Positions 13,994 to 36,085 of a DNA stretch of 64,000 bases are shown piece by piece. The stretch comes from Peronospora farinosa (taxonomy: Eukaryota > Oomycota > Peronosporomycetes > Peronosporales > Peronosporaceae). The notes under the pieces are model-generated. The model did no database searches and was not told the origin of the DNA. It saw only the letters and a program-made list of their open reading frames with translations. The number at the start of each line of letters is the position of its first letter. Within the stretch, counting starts at the first letter, position 1. The stretch is taken from positions 1 through 64,000 of the forward strand of contig CANTFK010000024.1 in NCBI GenBank assembly GCA_947646735.1. The letters run 5' to 3'. The position numbers and the translations under genes were made by a program.

Positions 13994-14125
13994 CCTGAGC
14001 AAGGCTTAAGCATAACCAAGAAACGGCGACGCATTTACAGGCTAAGGCTGTAAGTGTTTGAGTGCGAAGAAAGACTCCGTTTGTCAGGAAGGACAAACGT
14101 AAACTTACCTAAAAGCTGGCACAAC

Positions 14126-16113
14126 ATGTCAAACAAGGTAGAGCTGAACAAATATGGACGACCCGTAGGATGGCATGGGCAATCCTGGGCGTACTACAAA
14201 GGGATGATGAACTGACCTTTGAGGAAAAGGATGTGCTGGATTATGCTACGGGAAACAAGATTCTCGTAGGTAACGCAAGTGCAAACGAAGTGAAAGCGTT
14301 TCGAGAGGCGCAAGTAACAATCAAGCAGCTTATTCTTGCTTCCCTATCAATGGAGTTGGGGCAGCGTGTGATGACGAAAGCAACTGGCACCGAGATGTGG
14401 AAATACTTGGAAGACTTTTACGAGGGAAATACTAATGCTGCAACGAGAACAAACCAAGAAATTGTTCTTTACAACAAGTTAAACGCGATGAAGTGCAAAC
14501 CTAATTGGGACGTTGCGCAACACGTGGAAAACATGTTCATGATTAAAGATCAATTGGTCGCTGTGAACGCAGGTATTCGGGACCCGATCTTTACGCAGAT
14601 GTTAATTCGATCGTTGCCGGCGAATGCGCGCTTTGATCGTCTGAGAGGCATGGTTGAAAGCGGGGACGACAAGGTGGACACTTCGGAAAAATTGAAAGAT
14701 CAGATTTTGCGAATGGATAGTTTTAACAAGTGTGATCGGGAGCTTGGTGCCCATGGTGTCATTGGAAATGTGCAGGACAATGGAGGCAGTCAAACATCCA
14801 AGAACCGGCAAAACGCTAGCTGTGCAAGATCACATATCGGAACCAGAAAGTTAATAGCTGCCGACAAAGTACTCCAAAGCACGACTTCACAGGCGGATAA
14901 GCAGCATGGAAACTGCTTTAATTGTCATAAGCCTGGACACCGCATGAGAGACTGTCCTATAATGAAGAAACCAAAAACGAGTGATTATCAGGTGGCATTT
15001 GCACAGCATCCGAAGAATGAGCTTGCGGATGGATGTCAAGAAAAGCCGGATGAACTGATGGTGATGGCAAAGAACAAGCTGTCAACGAGGGAAAATACTT
15101 CAGACAGAAACTGCACACAACTACAATGGTGTCTTGACAATGCGTCGAATGTACATGTGGCTTCTGATTTACGATACTTTATTGATTATAGCGCATTTGA
15201 TAACAATGCACAAGCTCAATGTATCCGAGGATTTCAGAAGCACTTTAAAACAAAGCCGATTGGCCAGGGAACCGTTCAGATACTTGTTCAAAACGGATCA
15301 AGCAGCAACATGATAACACTTTATGACGTATTATACGTTCCTGACTGTATGAATTTAATTTCTCACACACAAGTCGAGGACCAAGGACATACTGTGAAGT
15401 ATTGCATCCGAGAGGGAGAAAGATTCTACGAGCTTTGGCAGCATAATCGGAAGCTGCTGAACATCAAAAGAGATGACTGTGGTCTTTTCACATTTAATGC
15501 CATCAATGATTTTCTATCACAAACGAGTGACAGGGGTGAACTGCTGATCACAGATAAGTGCTTCCGTCCTCAGGTAAATCATACGCGCGCACAAGGGCAC
15601 GCTGATATCCAACGGTGGCACGAAAGGCTGGGCCATCTTAATCCACAGTACGTGAAGCTCATGGCAGATCGCAAGCTAGTAGACGGAATGTCACTAAGCC
15701 CAAAACAATTTATTGATTGCGAAGCATGCCACATTGGTAAAGACCGACAACGTACACGTCATAAGCATTTGAAGCGTGATATAACGACGAAGAATCAAGT
15801 GATATTTGTCAATTTACTTTTTCCGAAGTACAGCTCAAGCCCAAGAGCGTATAAGGCGGTACTTGTTGTAGTAGATGGATACTCCCGGTATACTACGGTG
15901 TACCCACTTTACTCAAAGAACGCATCGGAAGTAAATACAGCCATCAAACGATACATTTCCTGGGCAGAGCGTCAATTTCCCGCAAATAAGGTCAAGCAAG
16001 TGATATCTGACGGCGGAGGGGAATTTGTAAATGGGGAGATTATCCTTTGGTACAGAAATGTTGGCATTGAGTTCTTACCACACACCTCATGGATCACACT
16101 TGAACCTGTGTGA
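14126..16113 (+). pseudogene. Element E Gag, protease and integrase (first part)
   Basis: ATG at 14126 opens a Gag frame (MSNKVELNKYGRPVGWHGQ) that is shifted near 14200 into the long frame reaching 16113. That frame contains the copia Gag region, a zinc knuckle CFNCHKPGHRMRDC near 14920, a protease region, the pre-integrase motif WHERLGHLNPQYVKLM near 15620, and the integrase core with VVVDGYSRY and VISDGGGEF. The protease motif expected as DSGA reads DNAS (WCLDNASNVH), so the catalytic triad is altered. The frame is lost near 16080 inside the integrase. Confidence 0.85.
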
Positions 16114-17262
16114 GAGAGCACACCAAACCCTAATTCACATGATGAAGGCAATGATGGCGTCCGCAAAGCTACCAAAATCGTTTTGGATGCATGCGCTTGA
16201 GATGGCTACGTACCTGAGAAATAGGGCATACTGTCGGTCAATCAAAGAGACTCCATACAGAATGATGATGAACAAGAAGCCAAACCTACATGGTATAAGA
16301 TAGTTTGGATCTCTCGCTTATGTCCATCAAGCGAACAACCAATCTCGGAAGAAACTAGATGATAACTGCAGAATTGGTTTTCTTTTGGGGTACCTGGAAG
16401 GACAAGCAGGATTTAAAGCTTATTTTCCAGCAGATCAAGTGGTTCAACACGTTTTGGATGCTTCGATCAATGAGGATATAGTATACGGTGACCGATATCA
16501 TGAAGGATGTGCTGTCGCCGTATCAGATTGGTTGTCACGTACAAGTACGGATGATGAAAATGGAGCGAGTATGGAAGTCGACAGCAATGACGAAAGTATT
16601 GCGTCAGATGAAGACAGATGGAAGTGAAGAATGGAAGTATTGAGTCGGATGATGACAGTATTGCGTCGGATGGTGAATCGATCCCGATTGACTATGAGAG
16701 CGAGTCATCAGCAATCGAGTCATCACCAAAGTTTGAATTAGTTGATGTGGATTCAGTGAAGACCAACATTGATATTCCTGTAATTCGGGATACACTCGAT
16801 CTGAGTAATCAGAGCCCTATGTGTGCCAATGCCAGTGATGATGCAATTCAAAAACATTATACAAGCAAGCCCTCTAGCTTGGAAAGTGAAACGACCCACG
16901 ATACCGAAACAGATGTTGACAGTCAATCAGCTGCCGAAAATTGCGACAAGGTGAGTTGTGACTATCGGTCAGAGACATCCGACACTAGTAATATCGAGAA
17001 TGAGGATGAAAATGTACATGCAGATACGGAACTACCTACCACCTCCAAGGATACAGTACATTCACGCGAGGGTGCGACGACGAGTGAGTCCAGCAATGAC
17101 CTGATGGATACGTGTATGATTCCTGAAATAATTACTGGAGAACGTAGGAAAGTTTTGGATGCGGAGCTAGAGGATGTCCAAGAGATAAAACGACGGCGCG
17201 AGAACAAAGGAAGGCCACAGAAAATGGTCTTACGCCAGTCAACAGAGCGCCGATACCCGTAG
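16031..17262 (+). pseudogene. Element E integrase end and acidic linker
   Basis: After the shift near 16080 the integrase continues (CERAHQTLIHMMKAMMASAK, ALEMATYLRNRAYCRS), meets an in-frame TAG near 16302-16304 and resumes with FGSLAYVH and GFLLGYLEGQAG. A frame from 16618 to 17262 follows; it is very rich in Asp, Glu and Ser and ends in a basic KRRRENKGRPQ cluster. Copia polyproteins have such a linker between integrase and RT. Confidence 0.75.
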
Positions 17263-17412
17263 TGGCTTGAGGGGTACCTTGTGAATGCTGCACTCCATGA
17301 AAATAGCGAAAGTCTTACAGCGAACCATAGATGGCGAGCAAATGAGACCAAGATTCCCAAAAGCTTTACTGAAGCGATGAAGACGCCGCAATAAGACGAA
17401 TGGTATAATGGT

Positions 17413-18261
17413 ATGAAAAACGAAGTGAACGCCATGTTTTCTAAGGGAGTATTGGTTCCGATTGATGAAACAGAAGCCCCGGCGAAGGCAAACAAATTAG
17501 GATTAATGTGGAGATTCCAAGTGAAGACTGATGACCAAGAATGCATTGAACCAGCTGAAGACACTGATTTTGATTATCGAGGAACTATTGGATCGTTGAT
17601 GTACTTGGCGACTACTACAAGGCCAGATATTGCGTATGCTGTGGGCTACTTGAGCCGTTTTGTGAGCAACCCATCACGAAAACACTGCGGAGCCGTCAAG
17701 CGAGTATTGCGATACCTATCTGGTACACTACAAACCGGCATAAGATACACACGAGATATGGGAGCAAACGAAGATGTTGTCATTACTGGATATTGTGATG
17801 CTGATTGGGGCAACGATCCCGACTCAAGAAAAAGTGTCACCGGATTTGTGCTTATGATGGAATCTGGAGCTGTCGCATGGGCTGCCAGACGTCAAACAAT
17901 AGTCGCACAATCAACCGCAGAAGCCGAATATGTGGCAGCATGCGAAGCGTCCATGGAGGGTCGCGGAATTGCAAATATGCTCAATGAGATTTTACACTGT
18001 ATACAGGCACATGCTGTACTAACGATGGGCATTGACAATGCGGCAGCTATTTCGTTGGCATGCAAACCCACACATAGCAGCAAAACAAGACACATTGAGC
18101 TAAGATGGCATTATGTGCGCGAACAAATTAAGGCTGGGCATATTTTGGTAAAGAAAGTGTCCGGAACAGAGAATCCTGCTGATATGTTCACAAAGGCTCT
18201 ACCGAAGCGCAGCCTAGCGAAGTATCGAGCCGACATTGGCATGAGGATTTCACAAGAGTAA
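17413..18261 (+). pseudogene. Element E RT remnant joined to RNase H
   Basis: The frame starts in the RT N-terminus (MKNEVNAMFSKGVLV, then LGLMWRFQVK) and jumps near 17520-17560 to the region after the palm (YRGTIGSLMYLATTTRPDIA). About 250 residues, including the catalytic YVDD, are absent, and the reading frame is kept. The RNase H is intact to the eye: CDADWGND, AQSTAEAEYVAA, IDNAAAISLA and the terminal TKALPK. Confidence 0.85.
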
Positions 18262-18292
18262 AGATGTTCCGACACAAGCGTCGGAGGGGGCG

Positions 18293-18668
18293 TGTTGTGA
18301 TATGTTCCTCCCAAGTTGAAGTCGTTGGAACATTTCACGTCCGTTTACACATTTCACGTCCGTTTACCGATTCCGATGGTGAAACGTGGAAACAATGGAG
18401 AAGGGAAACGGCGGAGATCAGAATGGGACGAGTCGACAACTGGACGAGTCGACAAACGTTGGTGACAAGGTGGCGGCTCGCAGGTTAGCTGCAGCCGCAT
18501 ACATGAAAGCTCGAAAGCTCAGTCAGAAAAGTGCAAAGTGCAAGGCAAGTCGTCAGTAGCCAGAAAGAGCTAAACGAAGTAATATATATCTTTGAGTGTC
18601 AAGAGATATATCTCTATATCTAGCATAGCTGGACGCTAGAGAGACTGCAATAAAGCGAGATTGCAACA
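18293..18668 (+). repeat. 3' LTR of E, 376 bp
   Basis: It begins TGTTGTGATA at 18293 after a purine tract (GTCGGAGGGGG) and ends TTGCAACA. It lacks one 16-bp unit relative to the 5' LTR. Element G internal sequence starts directly after it. Confidence 0.9.
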
Positions 18669-18748
18669 CTGACGACACAATTATCGACTCAACTGGGGAA
18701 TGTTTTTTTCTCGGGTCAGCAGAAGAGTGTATCGATCATGGATCTCCG

Positions 18749-19867
18749 TTGGACTCTCCTACCCCTAATGCCTTTATTGGTGCTGACGCATGCATCGTAC
18801 TTCAATCCCGCGACGCTAAGTTGCCAACTTCGACAAAGTGGCTTATTGACAGCGGCGCTACCCATCATTTTACGAACAACGCAGCTGCAATTATCACGCC
18901 CACACCCAGTTTCTTACGAGTCCGTGTCGCAAATGGTTCCGTGCTTCAGGCCGTTAGCAAAGGCAGCGTACTGCTAAAGACGATCACAAACGGAACGGTT
19001 ACCCGATTTGTGCTCACTGATGTGCACTACGTCCCTGCTATGCCACGAAACCTGCTTTCTGTTTCTAAGCTTATCGATCAAGACTTTGTGGTTTCATTCT
19101 CCAGTCACTGTACGCTCTCTACGAATGATCGTATCATCGCCCGTGCCTTTCGCGAATCACGTCTCTGGTCACTTTCCGCAATATCTGATACTGCTGATGA
19201 GGCTGCTGCTTTTCTCGCTCGAATTGAAAGCTCCACCCTTCGCAAGTGGCATGAGCGGCTAGGTCATCTGAACTACCAAGATGTTGTTCGTATGGCTGAC
19301 AAGGGGCTTGCCGCCGGTATAAAGCTGACAAATCGAACCATGCCTTTTTGTATGCAGTGTGCTGAAGCTAAGCAAACTCGCAACCGTCAAGGTAAACAAG
19401 ACACTTCAAGATCAGCTCCTACAGACGAGGTTGGTGCCGTCATCGGCTTAGACCTTAAAATCAACATCTCCCCAGTCGACCGGAAGGGACACAAGCACGT
19501 TCTCACCATTGTTGACTATGCTTCTGGGTACAACTGTGTCTACTTGCTGAAGACGAAAAATAAAGCCTTCGACAAATTCGTAAATTTTCACGCAATTTTC
19601 CAACGGCAATTTGATGTTTGAGTCAAATGCATTCGTTCGGATCCTGGTGGTGAATTTGTTAATGACAAGATGAGGCAATATTTGCAGCGCCATGGAATCC
19701 TACACCAGACAACCGAAACAGACACTTCCGTTCAAAATGGCAAGGCCGAGCGCTTCCATCGCACGCTGTTTAATAATGCTCTGGTCATCTGGTATGCAGA
19801 CAAAATTTTGGGGAGACGCTATACTCTACGCCAGCACAATGCGAAACTACCTCCCTACCCGCGGTAA
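18749..19867 (+). pseudogene. Element G protease and integrase
   Basis: The protease motif is intact (WLIDSGATHHF near 18840-18870). It is followed by the pre-integrase WHERLGHLNYQDVVRM and the integrase zinc Cys pair CMQCAEAK. The catalytic core shows TIVDYASGY, then an in-frame TGA at 19619-19621 where the family has Arg (a CGA to TGA change), then IRSDPGGEF and NGKAERFHRTL. Near 19800-19812, at AAAATTTTGGGG, the frame shifts. Confidence 0.85.
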
Positions 19868-22067
19868 TGCAGACCGCCGTTCACCCCTCGAAGTACTTAC
19901 GGGAAAATTACCCGACGTCAGCCACTTGCTCAAATTCGGTGCCCGCTGCACCGTAAGGCTAGAGCATGCAGTTGCAAAGTCGCTTCGTAAACGCTCCGAA
20001 CAGGCGTTCATTCTCGGCATCGACCCCGTTAACAATGGCTACAATCTCTATCTTCCCCGTACCAAGACGTATTTGACCAGCTCCAACATCCAAAATGTCG
20101 ATCACGTTGATATCGATGCCGCTGGTGACCTCGTCGACACCTTCGATACACTTGACGCTGTCCCCAGCACATTTCATCCCCAGGCTCAGCAAATGTCCGA
20201 TCGTGCCGCTACCACCGACGCTCTTCACAAGACCACGCCAGTGTCTGAGGGGGAGCCATCACCCGATCATCTTGATTGGACCAGTGAAGTTTCAGGCAGC
20301 GACGACGACGATGACTTCAAGACAGGCGAACCAATTGATGACGTCACACTGACCAAGCGCCAAATCGACAGTGTATTCGAGGTCCACAAGCGCGGTGCTC
20401 AACTTCCAATTGAAGAATTCGAGCTACCTGCGTCCCTTCTTCTCGACGTCACCGGTATTTCCGGTGCAGCAATGATGGCCCTTCATATCTCTGATGGTGT
20501 TCCGGACCCTAAAAATATTCGCGAAGCAATGGCAAGTCCATTTTGGCCACAGCTAAAGGAAGCTATGATCCAAGAGCTGGACCAGTTGTGTAAGAATGGT
20601 ACATGGGAGGAAGCCGTCCCACCACCTGGGGCCAAGGTCGTGTCAACAAGATGGGTTTTCAAGATCAAATACAACTCGATGGGAGAACTCGACAAGTTTA
20701 AGGCTCGGCTCGTGAAAAGAGGATTCACCCAACGCTATGGTGTCGATTTCAGCGAAACATACTCTCCGGTACTCAAAATGGCAAGCGCGCGATTTCTTAT
20801 TACGCTTGGAGCTCAGTGGGGCTGTAAAGTTCGCCATGGTGACGTTCCCAACGCCTACCTTCGTGCACCGATTGATCGGCCGATCTACGTGAAACCGCCA
20901 CACGGATCCCCAGACGAAGGAAGAGTTTATCGATTGCTGAAGAGCCTTTACGGATTGAAACAGAGCGGACGACTTTGGAACGACTTAATTCATAGCTTTC
21001 TTCTCGAGTGTGGTTACACACAAAGCCGCCAAGATCCGTGCGTCTACTTCAAACATGAAGCCATCGGCACTACAGTTGTCGGCCTTTACGTCGACGATGT
21101 CATTATAATTGCACAAGATGACTCCCTATCTGAGACTCTTATGCAACAGCTCTACGATAAATTCGACATCAACGATTTGGGGTTAATCAGCAAGTTCCTC
21201 GGTATTAATGTGGATACAACGGATTACGGCTACTTTCTTCAACAACAGCACAACATCGATGCTCTCCTCACTAGGCTCGAAATGAATTGTACTACCCGTT
21301 CGACGCCAAAGGAAGAAAAACACAAGCTATACGATCCAAACTCGAGCCTCTTTTCAAACAAACGACTCTACCAAGAAGTTATGGGGTCATTATTGTGGAT
21401 CTCCAACTGCACTCGTCCCGATATCACTACGACCGTGAATCTTCTGTGTAGAGCGACACACGCACCCACCACCGAACACTGGAGTTGTGTAAAGCGCCTC
21501 ATGCGATATCTCAAAGGCACTTCGACTCATGGCATTTTTATCAAGAAGCTCAATTCAGTTCAATCGCAACCACGCCTGAAATTCTACAGTGACGCATCAT
21601 GGGCCGATTCCAAGCTAGACGCTAAGTCCACGACCGGTGTTCTCCTAACAATGAATGGTTCGCCTATATCGTGGTATTCCAAGAAGCAATCCGTCGTCGC
21701 ATTATCTACCATGGAAGCTGAGTACATTGCTGGTGCAACAGGTGTGAGTGAATGCCTCTGGGTAAAAGATCTCCTATCGTAGCTTAAACTCACAACAAAC
21801 CACGAACCGCTTTCGCTAATTGTTGACAATCAAGCTGTAATTATGAACATGGAGAACAGCGTCAGCTCACCTCGCAGCAAACACATCAACATCCGGTTCC
21901 ATTTTGTTCGCGATAATGTACAAGCCAAGCGTGTCACGGTCCACTACTGCTCAACATCAGAAATGCTTGCAGACATCCTGACCAAACCACTCGGCCGTAT
22001 CAAGCATGACCGCTTCACCAGAGCACTGCACGTCATGAATCGAGATGAGTTCAAGGTTATCAGCTAA
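19692..22067 (+). pseudogene. Element G integrase end, reverse transcriptase and RNase H
   Basis: After the shift near 19805 the frame is open to 21782. It has the integrase C-terminal domain, an acidic linker, then the RT: RWVFKIKYNSMGELDKFKAR, RHGDVPNAYLRA, LYGLKQS and the catalytic YVDD at 21087-21098. RNase H follows (FYSDASWADS, STMEAEYIAG). A TAG at 21780-21782 stands where Gln is expected (CAG to TAG), and the same frame then continues to 22067 through VDNQAV and DILTKPLG. A single stop therefore separates this stretch from an intact protein. Confidence 0.9.
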
Positions 22068-22287: not shown

Positions 22288-22302
22288 CCCCCCCCCCCCC
22301 CC
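22288..22302. repeat. 15-bp cytosine run
   Basis: An uninterrupted run of 15 C marks the boundary between copia G sequence and the coiled-coil coding relic to its right. Its exact length is unreliable in any sequencing technology. Confidence 0.8.
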
Positions 22303-22816
22303 GATTATGCAAGTGTCACCCGGACGTGAGAAGCGATCCAGCTAGCGATGGAACGAGCTCAAGTTATGGAGACCCTCGCTGACAATCAAAGGGCCCTCCA
22401 GCAGGCCTATCAGGCTGAGCATGGCCGGGCCTAAGGCTTGCAGAGCCGCGTGGACGAGGTCATTCGATTTGAAAAAGTTGATTTTCCCCGGATCGAGGCT
22501 CGATTCGGAACCTCGTCCGCGACCACGTAACCGACCAGCCTACTATGGTGGAGTACCGAGATGCGCTCGCCACCAAGAAGGATTACCGCCTTGAGGTTAA
22601 AGCGTTTCGGTCAATGATTCGGTACTGGAGGGCCAGTATGAGGCCACTGTGACGAGCTTCACACTCCAGATAGAAGAGCTGGAGGCCAAGTTGGATACCA
22701 CCACGGCCGATCTTCGGTCCAAAGTATCTCAAGTATCACTACTTCGAGATGAGCTGGCCCGCTCTAAAGCCCTCGTGAAGCAAGTCGCCTGCCAACGGGA
22801 TCAGCTCCAGAAACTG
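22303..22816 (+). pseudogene. Relic of a coiled-coil frame (antisense-ORF type)
   Basis: Plus-strand pieces encode heptad-like helices: MERAQVMETLADNQRALQQA near 22348, VDEVIRF, and from about 22652 LQIEELEAKLDTTTADL followed by SLLRDELARSKALVKQ. Stops and shifts lie between them. The style (Glu/Arg/Gln-rich, RDEL..S, QRDQL) is like the coiled coil of the antisense frame of B2. I read it as the remains of such a frame from another gypsy element, cut at 22816 by the B2 LTR. Confidence 0.4.
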
Positions 22817-24258
22817 TGTGATGGAGTGGGATTCGCAAAATTGCTGATGCGATTCCAACTCTCCACTGGCGCCCGGACAACCGACTAAAGGAGGGGGTAC
22901 CCCGATTCCGTGTATAAAGCCTTCCTCACATTGTGTACCCGTCGGTAGGGCGGGTTGCTCTCTTCTCGGTAGACCTGAGTCGATGTTGAACTTGATTGTG
23001 TTAGGGATAGGTGGGGGGGCGATCGCGTGGAATTCCTCACACGATCGCAGTTGTTCTTGGGGTGCTCTATTTGAGTCGCCCTGATCTCTCTTGAGATCGC
23101 CTTGTCCAAAAATGTAGATACTTGATCCACTTGATATATTTGATCTTCTGACCACTTGAGCCGTCTCGCGATCTTGTATGTGGACTTCTTAGTCCTCTGC
23201 GTCCAATCGCAGCTTGAGTTGTTTTGTTGAGAATTCTTGCAATCCCTGGCCAAACAATCCAGGGATATGACTTGCGTAGTATGTAGACTTCCTTGAGACG
23301 TCGGGGGGCCAAAGAATCCAGCCCGGAAGAGAAGTCGACACGTGTACTTAGAAGCAAATTGAACTCTGTTAATGTTAACCAATCAAATACCAAAACCTAT
23401 GATCTTGACTATCTGTAGCTCAGAATCTACTGCCACGTATCGCCCTTTCGGAGAAATCAGATCTTTTAATGTGGTCCACTCCAATATCGCTGCGATCTGG
23501 ATCGCTACCTCGCCCGGATCTAATACCATTTTAGTACCAGATCACGGTACTAAATAATTATTACCAGATCGCGGTACTAAATAATTAATATCGGATCGCG
23601 GTACTAAATATTTAATATCGGATCGTGATACTAATAATTAGTACCTGATCGCGGTACTAAATAATTAATATCGGATCGCGGTACTAGATAATTAGTATCG
23701 GATCGCGATACTAATAATTAATATCGGATCGCGATACTAATAATTAATATCGGATCGCGATACTAATAATTAGTACCTGATCGCGGTACTAAATAATTAA
23801 TATCGGATCGCGATACTAATAATTAGCATCGGATAGCGATACTAATAATTAGCATCGGATCGCGATCCGCCGGATCACGACTTGTCCTCTTCACCGTTTC
23901 TCAGGTCATGTGAGATGGTACATATATGTGACATGTCATGTCCACCATTCCAGTCCTCCATAGTGACGTGATCCACACCAGTCCGTTTTCCACATACTTG
24001 GATGTACCCATCCTCCTCCTTAGCGATCGCGTTCACGCGGATCGCCATCGGAAATACTGGAGATCGCAATAGCGTAGTTCCTAGGCCATATTTAACCCCA
24101 CATAGAACTGCAAACTACACCATTCACTGTTTTCCATCCCATTTGACGTCATCTCGAAACCTTTCTGCGAGATCGCGACTCATCAATATTGGCCATTTCG
24201 GACTTAACCGAAAATATGTGATCACACTTTGCGAAATTCACTCTTTCACTTCGCCACA
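22817..24258 (-). repeat. 3' LTR of B2, 1442 bp, expanded array
   Basis: It is homologous to the 5' copy at 34819-36085 and longer because the GATCGCG/ATTAATATC tandem array (about 23515-23875) has more units. A purine tract (GCAGGGGACGAT on the minus strand, about 24259-24272) lies next to its inner edge, as expected for priming of plus-strand DNA. Confidence 0.85.
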
Positions 24259-24343
24259 ATCGTCCCCTGCACCGATAGCCCACATACAGTGTTGGCCTAA
24301 CTGTGCACTGTCTCGCTTCACTCTTCTCGTCACTTCGTCCCTT

Positions 24344-26666
24344 ATGGCCAGATCTACACCCGAAAACGATCGCCACCCCCAAACTGGTGTGCTCGTTACG
24401 CGCGATCCAACGATGGGTTCCTCTACCGGATCGCGTATCTTGCTCCCGTCTACCCGGATAATCCTTCCTCCCGTTGCAGATCGTCAGAACGCGATCTCGT
24501 TGGTTTCTTCATTGTATGACCGCCTGGAAGCCCAGGATACCATCGTGGGAAGCTATCACTCCATGGAAAATGCCTTACGGGAGCAGGAATTTCGTGGAAA
24601 TCAGCTGGAGACGGAACTCAATTTGTATCACGAGTTGGTACCTCGACTGTGCACATTCGTCTTGCGTCGAGATGAAGAGTTGCGTCAACAACTTGATGCC
24701 GCTCTCCACATGGCCGAAGGTCTCGACGAAGAACTGAACCAGCTAACGGATCAGTCTCAGGAGATCGCCGATCTGAAGAATGCCTTGTTTCGAGCCAATG
24801 CAGAGAAATATCGCCTGCAGGATAAATTCCGCCGTGCGGCGGCCAATCTTCAGCGAACTCTGGAAGGAAAATTCCGGCAGCAGATCGCATCCCTCCAACA
24901 GCAACTGGACTCCATCCTCGCACAGCGTAATACAGAAGACAGTGCTTTGGCCGCTGACTTTCGACGCATGAAAAGCAAGGCATCCAAGTGCAAGAAAGCT
25001 CGTTCTCAGGCCCAGCAAGCCGCGAAACAACTGCAAGAGACACTGAGCGCGCTCGAGCTTGATCATGATCGCCTCCTGAGTACGAGTATTCGGAACGACG
25101 CAGCTTTGGATCGACTTCGTACCGAAGTTGCAGATCGAGAGGCAGAGCGCGATCTGGCCATCCAGGATCGAGATTTACTTCGTTCGCATCTGGCAGAATT
25201 GGCTACGGGCTTACTTTCTTCTTCGACTAGCCTTCTCGCGCTTTCCAATCCCTCGTCACCCAATCGTAAACGTACGTCATCTTCACCGACTCTGGACGTC
25301 CCCTGTAAACGTCCCCGCAGCGATTCCGGTACTTCTGCTCAATCTGCGACCTCGGAGAGATCTGGCATTCCAGCGCGATCTAGTACTCCACCGCGATCTG
25401 GTTCTCCACCGCGATCTAGTAATTTAACGCGATCAGGTAATTCGACGCGATCTGGTACTCGGGCGCAATCTCCCAAGTCGGTGCGATCGTTATTACAACG
25501 CGACCCAATGTTTCGTCGAAAGCTAAAAGAAACGCAAAACGTGTCCCTCGCCTTCGCCTGACTCTGAGTATGACGGATGGTCTTCCGATCCCGAAGACGC
25601 TACACTTGCTGCTCTATCCGGATCGCGTTCAACCGCGAGGCGTCGCAAAACCACGACGAAACTATCTGGCAACACCGGATCGTCTCAATCCCCTATCATA
25701 ATTCACAATGGTAGCCCACCCTCCAAAAAATCACCAGTCTCGAGTCCTGCTACGCCTTCTAGCCTTACGACCAAGATTTCTAAGGTCGACCTTTTTGGCG
25801 AACCTTCTAGCGACTCAGACGGGAAAATTAGCGTTTCCAGTGACATTCGTGAAGATATAAACCAGTTGCTCACTCCCGCTCAATACGCCGACCTGCCTGA
25901 TCTCCAAAAATCACGTGATGCGTGGATCCCAGGATATCGTGAGCGAAAGCCCCGATCGTCAACTCAGGTCGCTCCATGGTCCGCCCGACGGGTCAGTCTG
26001 ACCAGTGTTGCCGAATTGGGAGTGGAGTTCTTCTATCGACACTTGTCCCGACCGAGAGGGTATATCTTCACCCCTCAAGCCAATCCCAAATCTCTTCTTG
26101 ATTCTGAGTGGATTCCCCGACTGATCACCCCGGCACAAGTTACTGCGCTTTACGATCAGAAACCGTGGAACGTCACTCGTCGGCCGATTGCTCCCATCTC
26201 CTTCCCTCTGACTGGTTGGTTCAAAGATCTAGCAGACATTTATTTCGAATTTGAAGATCGCCATAGGCAAGCCTTGTGGGAGGCAACCCACTTCCTGTAT
26301 ATCTCCCGCGAACATCGGAAGGAGTATCCAGAGCTGGCGCAATTTTGTCAGCAACGCAAGCAGCGTCGGTCGAGATCTGGACCCCGCTGGAAGACTATTC
26401 TTCGCGTTATTCTCCAAGGGATGGTCGAAGGACACTGCGATCTGGACATTTTGTTGGATCCATACTTCCTTCACTTTCCAGTGTACTCAGAAGTGCGACC
26501 ATGGTATCCTGGTTTGGATTGCAAGCAGAAAAACATTCCCAACCTGATTACTGCACTGGCGTTGTTGGATTCTGCGGATCCTTGGCGGAACCAATATCGA
26601 TCCTCTATCGCGGATCACCCCGGTTCATCCCTCGCCCGTTTATCCAGTAATTTTTTTCCCAAATAG
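24344..26666 (+). pseudogene. Antisense coiled-coil ORF of B2, about 775 residues
   Basis: On the strand opposite to gag-pol, ATG at 24344 lies 86 nt beyond the 3' LTR and opens a frame to 25561. It is shifted once near 25520-25530 in an A-rich stretch and is open again to 26666. Upstream codons in the same frame run into the LTR and look non-coding, so I chose 24344. The protein has a long coiled coil (about residues 50-290, with DLKNALFRANAEKYRLQDK and repeated Gln/Arg/Leu heptads). Next come Ser/Pro/Arg-rich repeats (RSGSPPRSSN-type) with basic KRPR and KKRK clusters that could be nuclear signals. A Trp-rich C-terminal domain ends it (LTGWFKDLADIYFEFEDRH, HCDLDILLDPYF). Pol ends 210 nt away on the other strand, so the genes converge. 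I know no family for it. Confidence 0.65.
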
Positions 26667-26876
26667 CAATCGTGATCCGATAACACTTCTTGATCGTTCA
26701 ATACAATTCCATATTGTTTCTCCTTTTCGTTAAAATTGTCTTCTTTTGTTGGGCTTCTTTAGCCGCGATCCAGTCTTCCAGACCTTCGATCGCCATACTC
26801 ATTACACACAAATTTCCTTTCCACCATCCTATGCAACCTTCTTGCATATTGTACCATCCCCAACATTCGATCTTCG

Positions 26877-28172
26877 TTAGCCACCAGATCCCTCTTCATG
26901 TGATTGCATCGCTTCAAAACGATTCCGGCTAATCTTGCCACGTTCAAAATCTCGCAATAAAGCACCACAATTTAAGTCGGCTTCATCCACCCAGGATGGG
27001 TTAGCATAACCTTTCCAGTAGACTTTAAACTGTCTATGTACTCGTCCAAAACGTGTCTTTCTATCAGACCGTACATCCACAATCTTTTCCACTTCGAATT
27101 CATCGTCTCCCAGATTACCTTCAAAACTGTCTTCCGGCAAAAGCGCTTCATCAAAATCGAATCGATATTCTTCTTCGATCGTCAGCAAATTTTTTGGACG
27201 ATCGGGGAACGTCTTTACTTTCTTCAACTTGGATATATGTACGACGGGAAATAATCGATATGGTGTACCAGCGATCTCCAGTCGGACAGCGTGATCTCCA
27301 CACATTCCTTTTTATTCGAAAAGGTCCATGCCACATATGTGCTAGCTTTCGAGCGTACCCTTCTTTCACACGATCCAAATATAACCAGACTTGCGCCCCT
27401 GGTTCAATTTCGTGAGGCTTGAGATTTTCATTGTGGCGATCAGCACGTGTTTGGATCGCAGTCCTGAGTCTCTCATTTACTGCTTCTCTCGCCCGCTGAT
27501 AATGCCGCTGCACATGATATCGCCACCTACGTGGATCGCGATCCCGACGCCTAGTACTCCCTAATGGTAATGTAGCTTCCAACGTAGATCTCGGGTCCCA
27601 ACCATGAATCAAGAAAAATGGCGTTTCGCCGCGCACCCGATCTTGGGCGGTATTGATTGCGAAAGCTAGACGTTCGGCATACTCATCCCAGTCTTGTTGA
27701 TTAACATCAGAGACATACATCTTCAATGCACGAGTCAGAGTTTACACCATACGTTCTGCAGTCCCATTCGCTTGAGGGCGATATGCCATCGTTGCCCTTT
27801 GCTTTTGCCCAATAAGTCGATTGAACGCACGAAAAAAATCCGACATAAATCCAGGTTCCCGATCGTGCCGTATCGCTTCGCTTGCACCGAATCGTCGAAA
27901 GACGCACTCCTCGTAATTCTCGGCGATCGTCTGAGCTGTTCTAGATTTGCTCGCCTTGGCAACTACATAGCCCGAAAATAGATCGACCCAGACCAATAAT
28001 TCAGTGTTGCCTTAAAAGATCTAGGCAGCGATGGAATATGATCCATGGCAACAATCTGGAACGAATAAGTAGCTTGTAAATTTCCCGGAGACTCTCCATT
28101 AATAACCGGACGTCCTTTTCCAGTCTCGCAGTCAGTGCATTTGCTCACATATCGTTGTACACTGCAATACAA
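26877..28172 (-). pseudogene. B2 integrase and chromodomain
   Basis: The integrase is spread over several frames. The zinc domain Cys pair is in VSKCTDCETGKGRP; the core has VWVDLFSGYVVAKAS and HDREPGFMSDFF, then PQANGTAERMV, which ends in a TAA where Gln is expected. The frame resumes with FAINTAQDRVRGETPFFL. The C-terminal region holds VHISKLKKV and a chromodomain: VEKIVDVR, VYWKGYANPSW. A chromodomain tethers integration to marked histones in chromoviruses. Stops and shifts make it non-functional as read. Confidence 0.85.
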
Positions 28173-28232
28173 GCCTCTCCAATGAAGACGAGATCGAATC
28201 CGTTGATACGTCCTACCGATTCCCTGGTGCCC

Positions 28233-31200
28233 TCATTCCAAACTGGCATGGTAGTGATGCAGAAAATCTTGCTGAAGAGTTTCTGGCACCACCAAACAAG
28301 CAATTCCATCGCGATCTTCCGAATTTCTCACAACTCTCGGGCAGAAAAATAGGAGATCACCTTCATCCACTTCATAATTACTTGCAATCTTGGCGCATAA
28401 CTTCGCTTCTTCCATACTGAGATTCCTTATATCACTAATCAGAAAAATCTTTAGGCTAGCGATCCAACATTCCTCATCTTGAGCTTGTCGTATACGTTCA
28501 CTTCGCATTTGCTGCACAAATTTTTCTTGCAAAATCTCGGGTAATTGACGTCTTCTCCGGGTTGATCTGGTAATTGCAGCAACTTTAACCACCGATTCGG
28601 TCTGTTTTGACTTCAACAACTCATCCAGTCTATTAAGGGTAATGAGATCTTGGCGATCTCCTTCCGAAGTGATGACCGCACCTTGTTCCTTCTGTAAAGC
28701 AGTACTCGCTAATCGATCTGCACTTTGGTTCCAGTCGCGTTTCATGTGTAAGAACTCATGGATCGGCCATGATCGAAGCTTCTCCATTGCTTTATGTCGC
28801 AACAACTGCAGTCCAGGAGCCTTGCAATCGATTTCACACCGCATCTGTCGAATCACTAGGTTGGAGTCGCCACAAATGATAACTCGTCCCCTAGTCTGAT
28901 TGTCCAACAGATCAAAGCCTAATAGTAAACCCCGATATTTGGCTTCGTTCACTGTTAAGTCCGTTGCATATTCCGATGCAGCAGCCACAATAGTCCACTC
29001 AGGAAGTTTCCATATTATCGCACTGTATGATCCACCCTTTCGATTGGTTCGTGCCGATCCATTGAAACTGACGACCAAGAGACTCTCATCTTCTTCCACC
29101 GTAGGCGGTGGCATACTTAGAGTTTGCCTTGGCTGTTTCCGGGGAGCGATCGCGATCAACACTTCATCGACTTCTTCACGGGGAGTTACACTTGCAGCCA
29201 GGGCACCAAGTATTTCATCTTCTCCCTTTTCCCATTTCTTGATCTCCAAAGTCCAGGTCGATAATAATGCGGCCCGCCTACCTAGCCTGCCATTGAGACC
29301 GGAGGATTGCACCGACCAGGCCATCGTCGAGAAACGCGTGAGAACGTTAATCTCTCGCGAGACTAGCATGCAATAACATATATCCAAAATCCGAAGTAAT
29401 GCTAGTATCTCCTTCTCGACCATTCCGTAATTGATTTCATTAGGCTTCAGCGTTCGGCTTGTAAACGTAACTGGCCAGTATGTGCCATCATACTCCTGCA
29501 ATAAAGCTGCTGAAACTGCCCATTTACTCGCATATACGACAATTACCGGAGGCCGATCTGGATCGAAGTGTCTGAGGATCGGGGTATTAGCGATCTTGGC
29601 TTTCAACATGGTAAATGCGATCATTGCTTTTTCCCATCGAGTCCGTCCTTCTGGATCTGGGTCGTCCCCTATGTCGGAATTTTGTTCCGAATCATTCCTG
29701 GTGGCGATATTCGAATCCAATGCATTCATCTTTTCAGAACAGCGGATTTCGTGGAAATCTGCTTCCCGTAATTCACATAGCACTGACGCATAAATCGCAA
29801 AGTCTTCGACAAATCGACTATAGTAATTCAAGCTTCCCAGAAACGATTGCATAGATCGCAACGTTTTTGGGAACGGAATGTTCACCAGCGATCCCAAATC
29901 CTTTGGATGAGCTTCTATTCCTGCAAGTGAGACTTGATGACCCAGGTAGTCCACCTTACGTCGTCCCCAAAAACTTTTAGCGAGACTGATCGACAAATTC
30001 CATTCGTTGCATACTTCTAGCAATCGCTTTACCTTATCATATAAGGAGGCCCACGATGTTGCTGGAATTAGTATGTCATCAATATATGACCTTCGGCCAA
30101 GCACGGATGGCTTCTGGCTAGTATCCGGTTCGCCTTCAGTGAATACATCCACCAGCTTTGGCGATTCCGTTAACGTATCAGTGGAGTCGAGTGATCCTGT
30201 GGCAATTGCGTTTGGATCGGACCGATCTTGAGGTATCCATACAGTGCATTATCAATTAGACGTTGGTAAATCTGCGGAGCGTTTTTTAGCCCAAACGGCA
30301 TTCGTAACCACTCGATCAAGCCTGACGGCGTGATAAAATCGGAAATCATCCTAGCTCTCTCGGTCATTTCCACGACCCAAAATCCACTGGCCATATCCAA
30401 CGAACAATAACACATAGCCTTATCCATATCTTGCAATAATTCGCTAATCAGAGGCATAGGATACACCATCAATCTCGTGAGTTGATTCATCCGCCGATAG
30501 TCAATGCATAACCGAATGTCGACACCATTCTTTTTTATAATTACCACAATCGGCGAAGCCCATGGTGATGTCGACGGCTGGATAATCCTGGCTGATAGTA
30601 ATTCTTTGATTAGGTCAGCTAACTTCTCGCGGAATTTGGTAGCGACCGGTCGTACTCGCTGTGCGATCGGGTGTGCTCCGCCAACATCGATATCACATAC
30701 TGCTCCTCGAGCTGCAGGAGAAAGCGCGTTTCCTTTGCCAATGAGTAAGTGTCGGTTCGCCCAAATCAATTGCCGTAGACCTTCTTGGTCCTTGGTTAGA
30801 GGAACTCCCGGATCGCCTACTTGGATTTCATCAATCGTAACTTCTTCGGTGGATGACACAATCTCAGGCAAGACAGCCATATGCTGATCCACATCTTCGG
30901 CATACAACTCACCACTCTCGTGATAATACATCGAGTCTTCAGGCTTCATCTTTACACTTCTTCCGGCTAGAATACATTCGTCGTCGATAGTAGTGGTATC
31001 ACTAGCTTGCTCCTGTTCTCGCAGATTGCGATCCAGATCGGCCAGATCGCGGTCCTCAACTACCGGATCGATCAGATCGCGGTCATTAACTACCGGATCG
31101 GCCAGATCGCAGTCCTTAATTGTCGGATAGGGGTCATCGCGATCTAGATCGCCCAGATCGCGGTCATTGATTGCCAGATCAGCCAGATCGCGGTCCTCAA

Positions 31201-31294
31201 TTGTCGGATCGCGCTCCATACATTTCGGTGTATAGTTATTGTGAGTGTAATTATCTTCACCCCACGGCCCTTGCGCGTGATCGACATTTGACAT
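28233..31294 (-). pseudogene. B2 reverse transcriptase with two RNase H domains
   Basis: A first frame (31294-30170) begins with a linker of repeated DRDLADL-like peptides and then RT blocks: RLCIDYRRMNQLT, YCSLDMASGFW, LRMPFGLKNAP. A frameshift near 30200 leads into the second frame (30152-28233) with the catalytic YIDD at 30086-30075 and QSFLGSLNYYSRF. The usual RNase H follows (VIVVYASKWAVSAALLQ). A second, archaeal-type RNase H lies downstream: VVSFNGSARTNRKGG, NEAKYRGLLLGFDLL, GDSNLVIRQM, NQSADRLA. Its first catalytic Asp appears as Asn (29063-29061). Plant Tat/Ogre elements and some oomycete elements are known to have this extra RNase H. Confidence 0.85.
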
Positions 31295-32530
31295 CCCTCT
31301 GATCGCATTGATTACCCATAAAAGATTGCGCTACTTGTTCACTTTCACCTTCGATCACCAGATCTTCTACATTGTTTCCACCGATTTCTCCTCTTATCGC
31401 ATCGCATTCATCATTGGATCGTGTCGTGGGTTTCACCGTTTCCGTAGTCCTTTCTTCTGCTTCCTCTTTTGAGCGTGTTAAGATCCTCTTCGGCGTAGGG
31501 TACGAAGGATGGTCCACTAGCGGTCCGGTATATTCCTCCAGTAGTTCTTCTTCCCGATCCGTTGTCGCTTCGAACGCTAATGTCTGCCATTCGTTATACC
31601 GACGCGATCCCACCGAGACATATCCTGGAGACCGAGGTATCATATCAGCGACCATCCACCAACCTAATGGTGGTCCATGACTTAATATCACTTCTTGATC
31701 GCCGATATTAGTCAGCTGTAGATACTTGATCTGACCTGGTCCCGTAGTTACTGTAGGTACCCACTTCGGATCGCGCCTCACCCAAATCTTGGCTTTAGGA
31801 GGACTAACCCCGATCTTCACTTCGGTCGATTTACCCACGGGAATCACCACATATTGATCTGGAATTGTGATCGCTTGTATGGTCGCCCGGTAAGGGGGTC
31901 TTCGTCCATTCAGAAGTATCCTGACCTCATCACGTAAACAAAGCGTTCCATCGGCTAAATCCAGGCGTATTCCAGCTGGGACCATGAAATCCATTCCTAG
32001 GATCGCGTCTTGACCTACTTGATCTCCTACCCAAGCATCGAAATAATAGACTAGCGATCCATTCAGCGTGATCTTGATTCTTGTACGACCGTCCGTCATG
32101 TATGTGTTCTCACCAATCCCAACACATTCTTGCCTCTGACTCTCGTCAATGACACATCCTACCTTACGAGCAAAGGTGGTGTCGACGATTGAGACTTCGG
32201 CTCCAGAATCAAACAACATAATCGCCTTTTCATTGTTGATCTTGCCCGTTGCCTTGGCTTGCTTGAACCATTTTCCTGGGGTATGATATTTCCAATATCC
32301 CCGTGATTCACCTGGTGCTAAGTCGAGCTCCATTTTCGCAGGCGATCGGGCATATTCATCAACTCTTACGACGCTTGATATTGAACGCAGAAATTTTGAA
32401 TCTTCACATGTATTATTCGGGTCGATCTGAGTGTTAACGCCCTGATCTGTCGATCTTCTTTCCACAAATGCATAAATGCAGAGCCTAGAACGCTCGGCTC
32501 GTACCAGATTCCAACCTGGCGAGCGTCCTA
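31257..32530 (-). CDS. B2 protease and downstream linker
   Basis: The -1 frame entered after the frameshift signal is open to a stop at 31257. It contains the retropepsin motif LFDSGAEVSIVD and its second half ILGMDFMVPAGIRLDLADG. A long stretch without a recognised domain follows, with WWMVADMIPRSPGYVSVGS. Unlike B1 this copy is uninterrupted. It ends in a frame different from that of the RT, so one further shift separates it from RT. Confidence 0.85.
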
Positions 32531-32537
32531 GTTTAAC
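32485..32537 (-). promoter_or_regulatory. Predicted -1 frameshift site at gag/pol junction, B2
   Basis: On the minus strand GTTAAAC (32537-32531), the gag stop TAG and the 12-bp stem are identical to B1, with no base changed although neighbouring gag sequence differs at several places. The protease frame is again in the -1 register. Confidence 0.7.
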
Positions 32538-34818
32538 ATTTCTTCAGCCTTCGGCGGAAGCATTCCAGCATGCTTAGTTGGGACATACCACTTGCGTATC
32601 ATGTTGTAGAATTCTTCCATTCGACATTTTCCATGCTCATGGATATCTCCGCAGGCAGCACAGGTGTAAAAACACTTGTCCGAAGGATGTCCCTTACGAC
32701 CACACTTCTGACACGTTAGTCTCTTCCAGCATCCACGATCATCGTGTTTCTTCGACCCACAATGGGTACAAGCCTTCTGATTCACCACGCGATCTGGACC
32801 GCGATCTTGATCCAAATGGTCCGATCCCGCGCGTTGATCACTATATTTCTTCACGCGATCTGGTACTGTGGCCACACATAGGTTGCGTCGATCTGTTTCG
32901 GCGTCTGATCCACTAATATCCGAGTCTGACTCACTGCTACTGCCTTCCAGGCGAATCGCTCTCACGGCACGAGTTGGTTTCGAGGGTGCCGGAGTGGATG
33001 CCGACGCAGATCGCTGACGAAATTTGCTTGACTCCATTGCACTCGAATACTGTCTTCCCTCCATGCGTTGATATGTTCGCAGAGTTTCTTCCATATCATC
33101 GGCGTCTCCAAGGCGTAACAACGTCAACTGCTTAGCCAGATCGCGATCATCAAGTGTACCAATGAAATGTTCCACATGCTCTCGGCGAATTGAGGGCGAT
33201 CCCTCCCGAATGGCAATTTTTGCTCGGATCGCGGCCACATTCAGTCGATACAAATATTCCAATGGAGTTTCATCAGATCGCTTCTTCGCATGATAGTATT
33301 GTCTCCCGACCGACATACCATATCCACAATACTGGATCATGAAGGTTTCCAGCAACGACTTCCATGAATTCCGAGTAGATCGACTTGACTGGATATACCA
33401 ATTTCGTGCCGGCCCCGTGAGCAAATCACCAAATACTAGACATTTTTCATCTATCCGGGGCTTGGTCGCGTAAGAACGCTGACTTGGCCTTGTTAACCCA
33501 ACTTCTCGCTCGATCTTCATCCTTGTCCCGTCCTGTAAATTCTTTTAGATCTGCGATCGCAGACATTCGAATTCGCTGCGTGACAAGTCCACCATTAGGT
33601 ACAGCGCTAGCACTTGCGACTTGTGTACGTCTTAGATACTCCAGACCCAAATCGTCTGGATCGTAATTATTGGATCGCGATTGACGCGATCCGGCCGATT
33701 CCATATCCACATCCGAAATGCAAACTTTTGGGGTGTTTGTGGGGATCGCGAATCGACTGGCGATCATGCGAGCTTGATCCTGCTCGTACTTTCTCATAGC
33801 AGCTTCGAAATAGGATTGCAATTGACCTGATCCATTCACATTCATGTCTTCAGCTGTGAGTGCCGTCGTCGATTGTTCTTCGGCCTTAATTGGTGCCAGT
33901 CGCTCGCGAATATGCGCTGCACCAGCCGGTCCAAGTGACATTTGCTGCATATTAATCGAGTTGTCCGACTCCCCTTCGGATTCCGCTGACATATACTGCG
34001 AAGATCCAGTATGATATCCTTTTGGTATATCTGCAATCGGCTGGATCGTCTGATCCACCGGATCGCGCTCTCCAGTTAGAGGAACTAGCTTCGAAAAAGA
34101 GATCGCTCTGCTTGGATCACCCGATCATGATCGCATTCCAACAGCACCTGCGCGTCAAAAGCTCCAGCGGTGAATCCAGCATTTTGGAGCAGCTCCATAA
34201 GCCGACGGATCGCTTCCAACTGGTTCGGTGTCGTAATGGGAGCTGAAATTGGTCCTCGCAGCGATCCAATCAACTTCGGTTTCAAAATCTTTAGAACGGG
34301 ATGGCTTGACAACATATCTTTAAGCGCCTTCCAATGAAAACACCATTCCAGCTGATCCAGTTGCCATCCTTTCGCCTTGTCTTCCTCATGCGCCGGCTTC
34401 ACGTCGATATCATCATGATCCGACTCAGGCGCCTTCATCTTCACTCGAGATGGCTTCGAATTCTTCTTCTTCTTCGAATTCGGAGTGGTTTTGGATAAAT
34501 TTCCCTCGGTTTTAACCGTAGGATTTTTATCCAGCGGATCGCGATTGCAACGCGATCCGCAGGGGTCCTCGAAAGGACTTGGGGAGGGGGTAGAGGTTTT
34601 TCTTCCAGATCAATCTCTTGATCTTCCTCTTTGGTTTTCTTTTTATCTGCGCCCCTCCCAAAACGCTGATGATCCGGGTATCTTTTTTCTTCACACGTCT
34701 GCGGTGATCCCTTTGCCGCTGACGCTTCAATCCCAGGTTCAATTTTGACCTTTACATCTTCTCTCAGGGACTCACGGTGAAATCCCGAGTCACCAGAAGA
34801 TCCGGGCACGCGCACCAT
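32528..34818 (-). pseudogene. B2 gag, frameshifted
   Basis: It starts at ATG 34818 inside the primer-binding site and has the same blocks as B1 gag: MVRVPGSSGDSGFHRES, KMKAPESDHDD, WKALKDMLSSHPVLKIL, CLVFGDLLTGPARNWY, and zinc knuckles with CQKCGRKGHPSDKCF and CAACGDIHEHGKC. Shifts near the charged N-terminal part and at about 33450 are shared with B1. A one-base loss near 34095 is private to B2. From 33520 to 32528 the frame is intact and ends at the frameshift heptamer. Confidence 0.85.
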
Positions 34819-36085
34819 TGTGGTGGAGTGGAATTCACAAAATTGCTGATGCGTTTCCAACTCTCCACTGGCGCCCAGACGACCGACTATCGGAGGGGGT
34901 ACTCCGCTCCGTATAAAGCAATTCCTTCCTCACCTTGTGTACCCGTCGGTAGGGCGTGTTGCTCTCTTCTCGGTAGACTTGAGTCGATGTTGAACTTGAT
35001 TGTGTTAGGGATAGGTGGGGGCGATCGAGTGGAATTCCTCACACGATCGCAGTTGTTCTTGGGGTGCTCTATTTGAGTCGCCCTGATCTCTCTTGAGATC
35101 GCCTTGTCCAAAAATGTAGATACTTGATCCACTTGATATATTTGATCTTCTGACCACTTGAGCCGTCTCGCGATCTTGTATGTGGACTTCTTAGTCCTCT
35201 GCGTCCAATCGCAGCTTGAGTTGTTTTGTTGAGAATTCTTGCAATCCCTGGCCAAACAATCCAGGGATATGACTTGCGTAGTATGTAGACTTCCTTGAGA
35301 CGTCGGGGGGCCAAAGAATCCAGCCCGGAAGAGAAGTCGACACGTGTACTTAGAAGCAAATTGAACTCTGTTAATGTTAACCAATCAAATACCAAAACCT
35401 ATGATCTTGACTATCTGTAGCTCAGAATCTACTGCCACGTATCGCCCTTTCGGAGAAATCAGATCTTTTAATGTGGTCCACTCCAATATCGCTGCGATCT
35501 GGATCGCTACCTCGCCCGGATCTAATACCATTTTAGTACCAGATCACGGTACTAAATAATTAGTACCAGATCGCGGTACTAAATAATTAATATCGGATCG
35601 CGGTACTAATATTTAGTACCGGATCGCGTTACTAAAATGATAATTAATAATTAGCATCGGATCGCGATACTAATAATTAGCATCGGATCGCGATCCGCCG
35701 GATCACGACTTGTCCTCTTCACCGTTTCTCAGGTCATGTGAGATGGTACATATATGTGACATGTCATGTCCACCATTCCTGTCCTCCATAGCGACGTGAT
35801 CCACACCAGACCGTCTTCCACATACTTGGATGTACTCATCCTCCTTCTTAGCGATCGCGTTCACGCGGATCGCCATCGGAAATACTGGAGATCGCAATAG
35901 CGTATTTTCTAGGCCATATTTGACCCCACATAGAACTGCAAACTACACCATTCACTGTTTTCCATCCCATTTGACGTCATCTCGAAACCTTCTGCGAGAT
36001 CGCGACTCATCAATATTGGCCATTTCGGACTTAACCGAAAATATGTGATCACACTTTGCGAAATTCACTCCTTCACTTCGCCACA
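34819..36085 (-). repeat. 5' LTR of B2, 1267 bp
   Basis: On the minus strand it begins TGTGGCGAAG at 36085 and ends CCACCACA at 34819, next to the same primer-binding site as B1. Its tandem array (about 35515-35700) is the shortest of the three B LTRs. Confidence 0.85.

Follow-up and report, generated by a model that had tools for sequence, protein, structure and literature searches.

The first 64,000 nucleotides of contig CANTFK010000024.1 of the oomycete Peronospora farinosa (the window, here meaning this whole 64-kb stretch) include four Ty3/Gypsy copies with a visible 3' end, designated A, B2, C and F, and in all four a reading frame on the strand opposite to gag-pol faces pol. An earlier note on this DNA had described such a frame in each element, starting approximately 85-205 nt inside the 3' long terminal repeat (LTR); position and strand agree with that description, and the start was found at roughly 85-110 nt. 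None of the four window copies of the antisense gene is intact, each containing a frameshift, stop codons or both. Nevertheless, several Ty3/Gypsy families of this genome carry an extra protein-coding gene opposite gag-pol that begins just inside the 3' LTR and runs, tail to tail with pol, into or across the pol end. The frames are more than a product of chance, since copies open over 427-896 amino acids (aa), codon-frame-specific constraint and homologues in other species were found. The coordinates of the window features are collected in Table 1.

Table 1. Elements A, B2, F and C of the window, with their antisense genes and pol ends.
Feature	Position	Strand	Remarks
A antisense gene	3661-4680	-	stretches 4533-3958, 3957-3661 and others; window copy broken
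B2 3' LTR	22817-24258	-	contains 26/53-nt tandem array at 23531-23866
B2 antisense gene, first part	24344-25561	+	starts with ATG; long region resembling a coiled coil, then linker of RS repeats; frame encodes 405 aa
B2 antisense gene, second part	25527-26666	+	another frame; linker end and conserved C-terminal domain (WIPGYR...CDLDILLDP...)
B2 pol end with chromodomain	26877-27311	-	Pfam match
B2 pol and gag frames	28233-33544	-	Pfam: weak gag, protease, reverse transcriptase, gypsy RNase H, second RNase H (RVT_3); Chronos-like set
B2 5' LTR	34819-36086	-	primer-binding-site-like stretch after LTR on minus strand (by eye)
F antisense gene	38741-39838	-	helical N-domain, then SR-rich stretch, coiled coil at C-terminus
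F pol end with chromodomain	38941-39507	+	opposite antisense gene
C 3' LTR	41663-42274	-	98% identical to the second LTR of C, 54342-54951
C antisense gene, first frame	42380-43354	+	window copy frame-broken
C antisense gene, second frame	43201-43845	+	opposite pol chromodomain frame
C pol end	43337-44044	-	integrase SH3 and chromodomain (latter below cut-off); opposite antisense gene

Element B2 is a minus-strand Ty3/Gypsy copy with the termini TGTG...CACA; its two LTRs, aligned in two segments, agree at 92-94%. The 5 bases that flank the element on one side do not match those on the other, so that there is no sign of a target-site duplication. Its antisense gene begins with an ATG 85 nt inward from the LTR edge, and a frame break separates the two parts of the window copy listed in Table 1. 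In element F, where pol is on the plus strand and the 3' LTR starts at 39962, the antisense stretches 39838-39260 and 39259-38741 form one reading frame with a stop between them, and another stop is found further on. The minus-strand antisense frames of element A run downwards from 4680, with the 3' LTR starting at 4791. In open relatives located elsewhere in the assembly, the distance from the start of the antisense gene to the LTR edge was 104 nt for C (L040), 110 nt for F (L065) and 109 nt for A (L073). In F2, a second F subfamily found elsewhere in the assembly, the MSGDP start (L066) is 76 nt from the LTR edge and a further ATG is present upstream of it. The pol ends of C, F2 and the B-type locus L002 gave integrase SH3 and chromodomain matches. 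The proposal that B2 and C also keep a normal sense-strand gag stands for C, with a clear match (45.2 bits, PF03732), while the match in B2 is weak (16.9 bits, below the cut-off).

The 46.85-Mb assembly was searched with pieces of the window as queries. Only part of the candidates was scored, and the counts of at least 116 B-type, 124 C-type, 152 F-type and 151 A-type matches are therefore lower bounds. Open antisense genes elsewhere in the assembly encode 837-896 aa for B, 480-481 for C, 465-468 for F, 457-493 for F2 and 427 for A; thus, where intact relatives riddled with antisense stops had been named as the outcome that would speak against a gene, open relatives were found for all four types. 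The open B gene of 837-896 aa was present in 14 of the 26 loci fetched (L002-L027); L015 is also open although the start-motif rule overlooked it, and the open stretch of L012 starts only at an internal position. Ten of 30 C loci (L031-L060) encode 480-481 aa and 7 more encode 381-518 aa. The loci for F (6 of 6 open), F2 (7 of 7) and A (6 of 6) were picked because they had been listed as open. F2 is about 44% identical to F in the part queried, and among the 92 matches listed in a separate search with F2, 21 were near full length and free of stops when read by eye.

For at least 52 of the 150 reverse transcriptase (RT) matches listed, a match to the antisense gene lies 2.1-3.3 kb 3' on the other strand, and this also holds for at least 27 of the 81 RT matches with an open frame of at least 800 aa; the look-up was by eye with antisense matches hand-picked from those listed, which makes these counts lower bounds. 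In open copies the antisense gene overlaps pol by 422 nt in A (L073), 572 nt in C (L040), 1058 nt in F (L065) and 773 nt in F2 (L066), in a phase relative to pol that is identical in the four types. In B (L002) there is no overlap, 189 nt separating the antisense stop from pol. Thus, the location first given for the gene, between pol and the 3' LTR, is accurate for B, whereas the genes of A, C, F and F2 lie only partly there and extend over the end of pol. The top-scoring RT matches with no antisense-gene match nearby were on contigs C56, C198, C220, C229, C235, C240 and C248, several of them clustered on one contig.

Searches for related proteins returned 12 of B-type, at least 19 of F-type and at least 15 of C-type, the F-type and C-type searches scoring only the candidates that shared most words. 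The homologues with a species name were from Phytophthora (capsici, fragariaefolia, rubi, megakarya, idaei, ramorum, infestans, fragariae and cactorum) and Peronospora (matthiolae, effusa and farinosa). The C-type gene product of L040 is 94% identical to a protein of P. effusa, in keeping with the origin of the window in Peronospora. Of the 13 F-type proteins P0015-P0027, nine have alignments that reach into the region shared with pol in L066; the C-terminus of P0021 from P. ramorum is FLESPDVERRV, similar to LEAPDVERRV, the reverse-strand reading of the pol motif HPTFYVGRL in window element F; and P. farinosa P0033 extends, opposite pol, past the stop of the L040 gene. Judged from these proteins, the antisense arrangement is very probably present in those Phytophthora and Peronospora species also. 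Several homologues are composite: P0046 has a C-type start joined to a B-type domain (by eye), P0008 has RT-RNase H fused in frame to a B-type domain, and P0009 has a GRF zinc finger joined to a B-type domain. These could be recombinants, nested copies, assembly chimeras or gene-model fusions.

Selection on the antisense frame was evaluated with pooled Nei-Gojobori (NG86) ratios of non-synonymous to synonymous rates (dN/dS) over 14 copies of B, 17 of C, 6 of F, 7 of F2 and 6 of A. The ratios were 0.52, 0.59, 0.57, 0.73 and 0.31 respectively, compared with 0.68-1.30 in the four frames that do not share the antisense third positions and 0.39-0.64 in the complementary frame that does. Since the NG86 pairs are not independent, each segregating change was also classed once as non-synonymous (N) or synonymous (S) and the N/S ratio compared with that of 1000 random placements in matching trinucleotides. 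In the 859 nt of A outside pol there were 20 N and 32 S changes, a ratio to neutral of 0.34 that none of 1000 random sets was as low as; the 871 nt of C outside pol gave 109 N, 60 S and a ratio of 0.65 (random-set fraction 0.001), and the whole B gene 48 N, 32 S and 0.67 (0.031). The antisense ratios of A, B and C fall within the range of the pol-only controls from the same loci, which were 0.32 for B (3 N, 6 S; 0.052), 0.73 for C (0.018) and 0.56 for A (0.18). In deeper comparisons, the B C-terminal domain of L002 and L062 gave dN/dS 0.13 at a dS of 1.78, near saturation, and the whole genes of F and F2 gave 0.29 at a proportion of synonymous differences (pS) of 0.71. Synonymous sites are saturated relative to the distant B subfamily L061, with the C-terminal domain still 55% identical. 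The antisense gene is kept by purifying selection. The earlier note had named a ratio near 1 as the result that would count against a gene; non-synonymous change was depleted within families A, B and C, while for F the depletion was seen in the deep F-F2 pair but not within the family.

On the minus strand of B2, Pfam matches to PF17917/PF17919 are followed by PF13456 within 28233-30248, the second RNase H being of archaeal type as judged by eye from its residues, and the chromodomain at the pol end scored 30.0 bits against a cut-off of 25.1. In L002, rve, SH3 and Chromo are in one frame, each just below the cut-off. Chronos is an oomycete Ty3/Gypsy group with a second, archaeal-type RNase H and a chromodomain, described as convergent with plant Tat (PMC5348765). 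By domain set B2 matches this dual-RNase-H group, sharing with it the gypsy RNase H, the second RNase H and the chromodomain at the pol end; no description of an antisense gene was found for Chronos, and the word "antisense" does not occur in the main text of the Chronos article (PMC5348765). The RT identity of pol was 63-71% between A and C, 42% between A and F and 40-52% between C and F, compared with 22-35% between each of these and B2, and in C and F the gypsy RNase H is followed directly by the integrase zinc-binding domain with no second RNase H. Because A, C and F are related in pol and distant from B2, and C and F are without the second RNase H, the domain and identity data place the antisense gene in at least two gypsy clades. 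If Grande, RIRE2 and Retand are members of Tat, as is assumed here, the likeness of the Chronos-type B2 to plant Tat would extend to the antisense gene.

The B protein has a long N-terminal coiled-coil-like region, a linker of arginine-serine (RS) repeats and a conserved C-terminal domain with the stretches WIPGYR, RKQRRSRxGPRWK and CDLDILLDPFFLH. The F and F2 proteins have a conserved helical N-domain, an SR-rich middle and a C-terminal coiled coil. The C protein has a low-complexity N-terminus, the conserved block PIPVVLRSNETADxYEAEL, a C-terminal coiled coil and an SR tail, and the A protein combines an acidic N-terminus with a block faintly resembling the C block and with a C-terminal coiled coil. 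RS pairs are present in the B, C, F and F2 proteins. The description of the products as rich in basic residues and serine thus applies to B, C, F and F2 (isoelectric points 9.8, 10.1, 10.4 and 11.2) but not to A (5.9), while the coiled coils noticed in B2, C and F were also indicated by a home-made heptad score, which extends them to all five types. Pfam matches of the antisense proteins were all below the cut-off and mostly to coiled-coil or zipper families, and no family or fold match was above threshold apart from coiled-coil-type sequence matches in PDB. Neither Retrotrans_gag nor any other gag family was found in the antisense frames tested, and PF04195 (TRP28) had no match at E ≤ 1 among five antisense proteins and five homologues. 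HBZ, the antisense gene product of human T-cell leukemia virus type 1 (HTLV-1), is a bZIP protein; the bZIP family PF00170 was matched with 13.2 bits in P0005 only, weak compared with the cut-off of 27.6. Profile comparisons gave nothing between B and the other types or between F and either A or C, and between A and C gave an hhalign E value of 0.0012 (probability 19%), suggestive of similarity between these two proteins. As judged from the profiles, the antisense genes of the four elements are not one single gene, because nothing links B to the others or F to A and C, and the A-C similarity is only suggestive.

Antisense additional open reading frames between pol and the 3' LTR (aORF-3R) have been reviewed for gene23 of maize Grande, rice RIRE2, Silene Retand, PvRetro13 and Boty of Botrytis and Sclerotinia (PMC7264820), in agreement with the analogy to plant elements such as Grande drawn at the outset. 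The Grande antisense gene is reported to have its own promoter and a nuclear protein, and ORF2 of PvRetro13 an SMC domain (PMC7264820). The genes reported here share with aORF-3R the position between pol and the 3' LTR, the orientation antisense to gag-pol, the many copies per family, the conservation at the protein level (not significant within F and F2) and the lack of clear outside homologues (PMC7264820). They differ in the oomycete host, in proteins without PF04195, in the chromodomains of the elements and, for all types except B, in an antisense gene that overlaps the end of pol. Retand antisense ORFs contain a TRP28 domain in 97% of clusters and resemble those reported here in having tandem repeats nearby (PMC11963269), whereas no TRP28 domain was found in any of the ten proteins scanned, and the distance from pol to the LTR is approximately 2.6 kb in B2 and 0.5-1.1 kb in window elements F and C, compared with 2.9-6.6 kb in Retand (PMC11963269). 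HBZ is likewise an antisense retroviral gene with a nuclear product (PMC11963269). CERV of Cer1 is a novel nuclear element protein required for export of genomic RNA; it differs in being the product of a spliced Cer1 mRNA (PMC10309623). No sequence link of the antisense proteins to HBZ or CERV was found. The word "antisense" does not occur in PMC10508981, and no description of an oomycete antisense gene was listed in searches of an open-licence paper library, Repbase and supplements lying outside that scope.

We favor, with moderate confidence, the interpretation that these gypsy families carry a constrained antisense gene starting just inside the 3' LTR and that most of its products are nuclear, oligomeric, nucleic-acid-binding accessory factors with their own antisense transcript, the function being deduced from protein features. 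Transcription would be driven by an antisense promoter lying at the edge of U3 in the 3' LTR, the B2 3' LTR being a candidate source of the transcript, and a separate antisense mRNA would allow the protein to be made without splicing or translating genomic RNA. The basic, SR-rich, coiled-coil-like proteins of most types are probably nuclear and oligomeric and probably bind nucleic acid. They may act on the RNA or DNA of the element itself, whether by exporting or protecting genomic RNA, by delivering the integration complex or by regulating LTR transcription, and broken copies could be served in trans. CERV provides a precedent that an element protein unlike any known retroviral protein can be necessary for genomic RNA export (PMC10309623), and a function like that of Rev, CERV or HBZ would fit.

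Several results weigh against this interpretation. For 98 of the 150 listed RT matches, including all of the 16 with the highest scores, no partner was found, and some RT-bearing families may lack the antisense gene. One RT match without a listed partner, L086, does carry an F2-type gene, but it is frame-broken under an open pol end. Outside pol no constraint was detected within the F family (11 N and 2 S, 13 changes; ratio 1.88) or within F2 (27 N and 11 S, also totalled as 40 changes; 1.11), and inside the pol overlap no antisense result was significant (A 1.44, C 0.85, F 0.77, F2 0.71). The pol controls of B and A were themselves not significant. The A protein is acidic with 6 RS/SR pairs, and one shared biochemical role for all types is therefore doubtful. 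No recognised nucleic-acid-binding domain was found in the antisense proteins and their structure models are weak, an initiator-like motif was present upstream only in B2, and in this genome both transcript and protein are predictions from sequence.

A regulator that binds to a short word of the element encoding it and alters the epigenetic state of that element, as an antisilencing or transcription factor comparable to VANC of Arabidopsis VANDAL or to HBZ, is an unlikely alternative that nonetheless has a candidate word in GATC. This word is packed in Chronos-like elements across LTRs, gag-pol and the antisense gene. It was the most over-represented of 136 tetramers in five of five B-type sequences (B2, z 17; B1, L061, L062 and L063) and in none of the seven other sequences ranked. 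GATC occurs at 3.5-5.5 times expectation in 29 of 29 B loci, compared with a median of 1.07 in C (highest 2.68) and 0.97 in F/F2; the 3' regions of A elements (L073-L078) are nearly without it (0.12-0.25 of expectation), while window positions 1-4790 are not depleted. In 1-kb bins of the window the density falls outside the outer LTRs, and the over-representation covers 22817-36086, 9496-13585, L002-L030 and L061-L063, including both coding strands and LTRs. Each of 8 B coding pieces contains more GATC than the average of its synonymous-codon shuffles, with z 2.9-6.1 in seven and 2.0 in the lowest, L062. Counts were 51 versus 29.8 in the L002 antisense gene (z 6.1, inflated by the RS-repeat array), 40 versus 20.7 in L061 (z 5.9), 27 versus 15.1 in RT-RNase H (z 4.3) and 18 versus 11.6 in gag (z 3.0). 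Pieces from A, C, F and F2 showed no such excess (z -2.8 to 0.5). Since just 12 sites coincide between L002 and L061, of 34 and 36, GATC density is kept while many positions turn over. The longer word GATCGC is specially enriched in the B2 subfamily (28 versus 5.7 in L002) and less so in L061-L063. GATC-bearing units also form tandem arrays, of 26/53 nt in the B2 LTR and of 18 nt in the antisense gene (25359-25460), the latter encoding the RS-rich repeat; the length of the antisense gene varies between copies.

VANC targets are often tandem repeats that evolve together with VANC (PMC5735166). Phytophthora DAMT adenine methylases methylate GATC in vitro, and peaks of N6-methyladenine (6mA) are enriched in Phytophthora transposable elements, including LTR elements (PMC6211444). 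A speculative proposal, to which we assign a low probability, is that Chronos-like elements keep a dispersed GATC code, concentrated in the LTR arrays, in excess of codon needs and with an added GC flank in the B2 subfamily, which the B-type protein, with its GATC-array-encoded RS linker, would read on DNA or RNA, coupling host adenine methylation to element expression as a counterpart of VANC-motif co-evolution. Against a regulator of this kind, GATC is not enriched in the A, C and F elements that also carry antisense genes, no bZIP or other DNA-binding family was above the cut-off, and the binding is hypothetical.

It is also rather improbable that the antisense transcript itself matters and the frame is incidental, with RNA from the 3' LTR pairing with genomic RNA and feeding silencing or self-limitation. 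Small RNAs of P. infestans map to Gypsy elements in both orientations (PMC3522703), and antisense transcription has been discussed as a possible regulator in plant elements (PMC7264820); however, a non-coding transcript would not predict the amino-acid conservation across species and the depletion of non-synonymous change. Coding and antisense-RNA functions could coexist. A structural role as a Gag partner or env-like particle protein is more doubtful still: coiled coils suit assembly and env-like genes sit between pol and the 3' LTR, but those reviewed are sense-oriented (PMC7264820), no gag, capsid or env family was matched, and the F domain had no fold match and a weak model. Finally, that pol or composition merely holds the complementary strand open is very improbable, in spite of the part opposite pol in A, C, F and F2 with its non-significant signal, because B has no overlap, the clearest constraint is in A and C outside pol, and the three frames complementary to the antisense gene are full of stops (12-15 in A, 17-19 in C and 22-30 in B).

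Reviews of antisense accessory genes in LTR elements have so far dealt mainly with plants. The presence of constrained antisense genes in many-copy families of at least two oomycete gypsy clades suggests a recurrent solution rather than a plant oddity. If the Tat membership assumed above holds, dual-RNase-H elements of both plants (Tat) and oomycetes (Chronos) would carry an antisense gene. Why the gene is antisense, and why it is at this place, thereby becomes a comparative and testable question. The genes may also account for some unnamed gene models in Phytophthora and Peronospora annotations.

Other features were noted in the window. A decayed coding-like remnant, coiled-coil-like by eye, is located just left of the B2 3' LTR (22300-22816). 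A Copia element with gag, integrase and RVT_2 matches (13586-21782) adjoins a B-type copy lying in the opposite orientation to B2. Element C contains a nested element (43973-49162) with LTR-like repeats at 43973-45593 and 47793-49162, many 20-21-nt repeats and an internal frame of 263 aa at 46141-46932. A PI3/PI4-kinase-like frame is present on the minus strand at 55399-56751.
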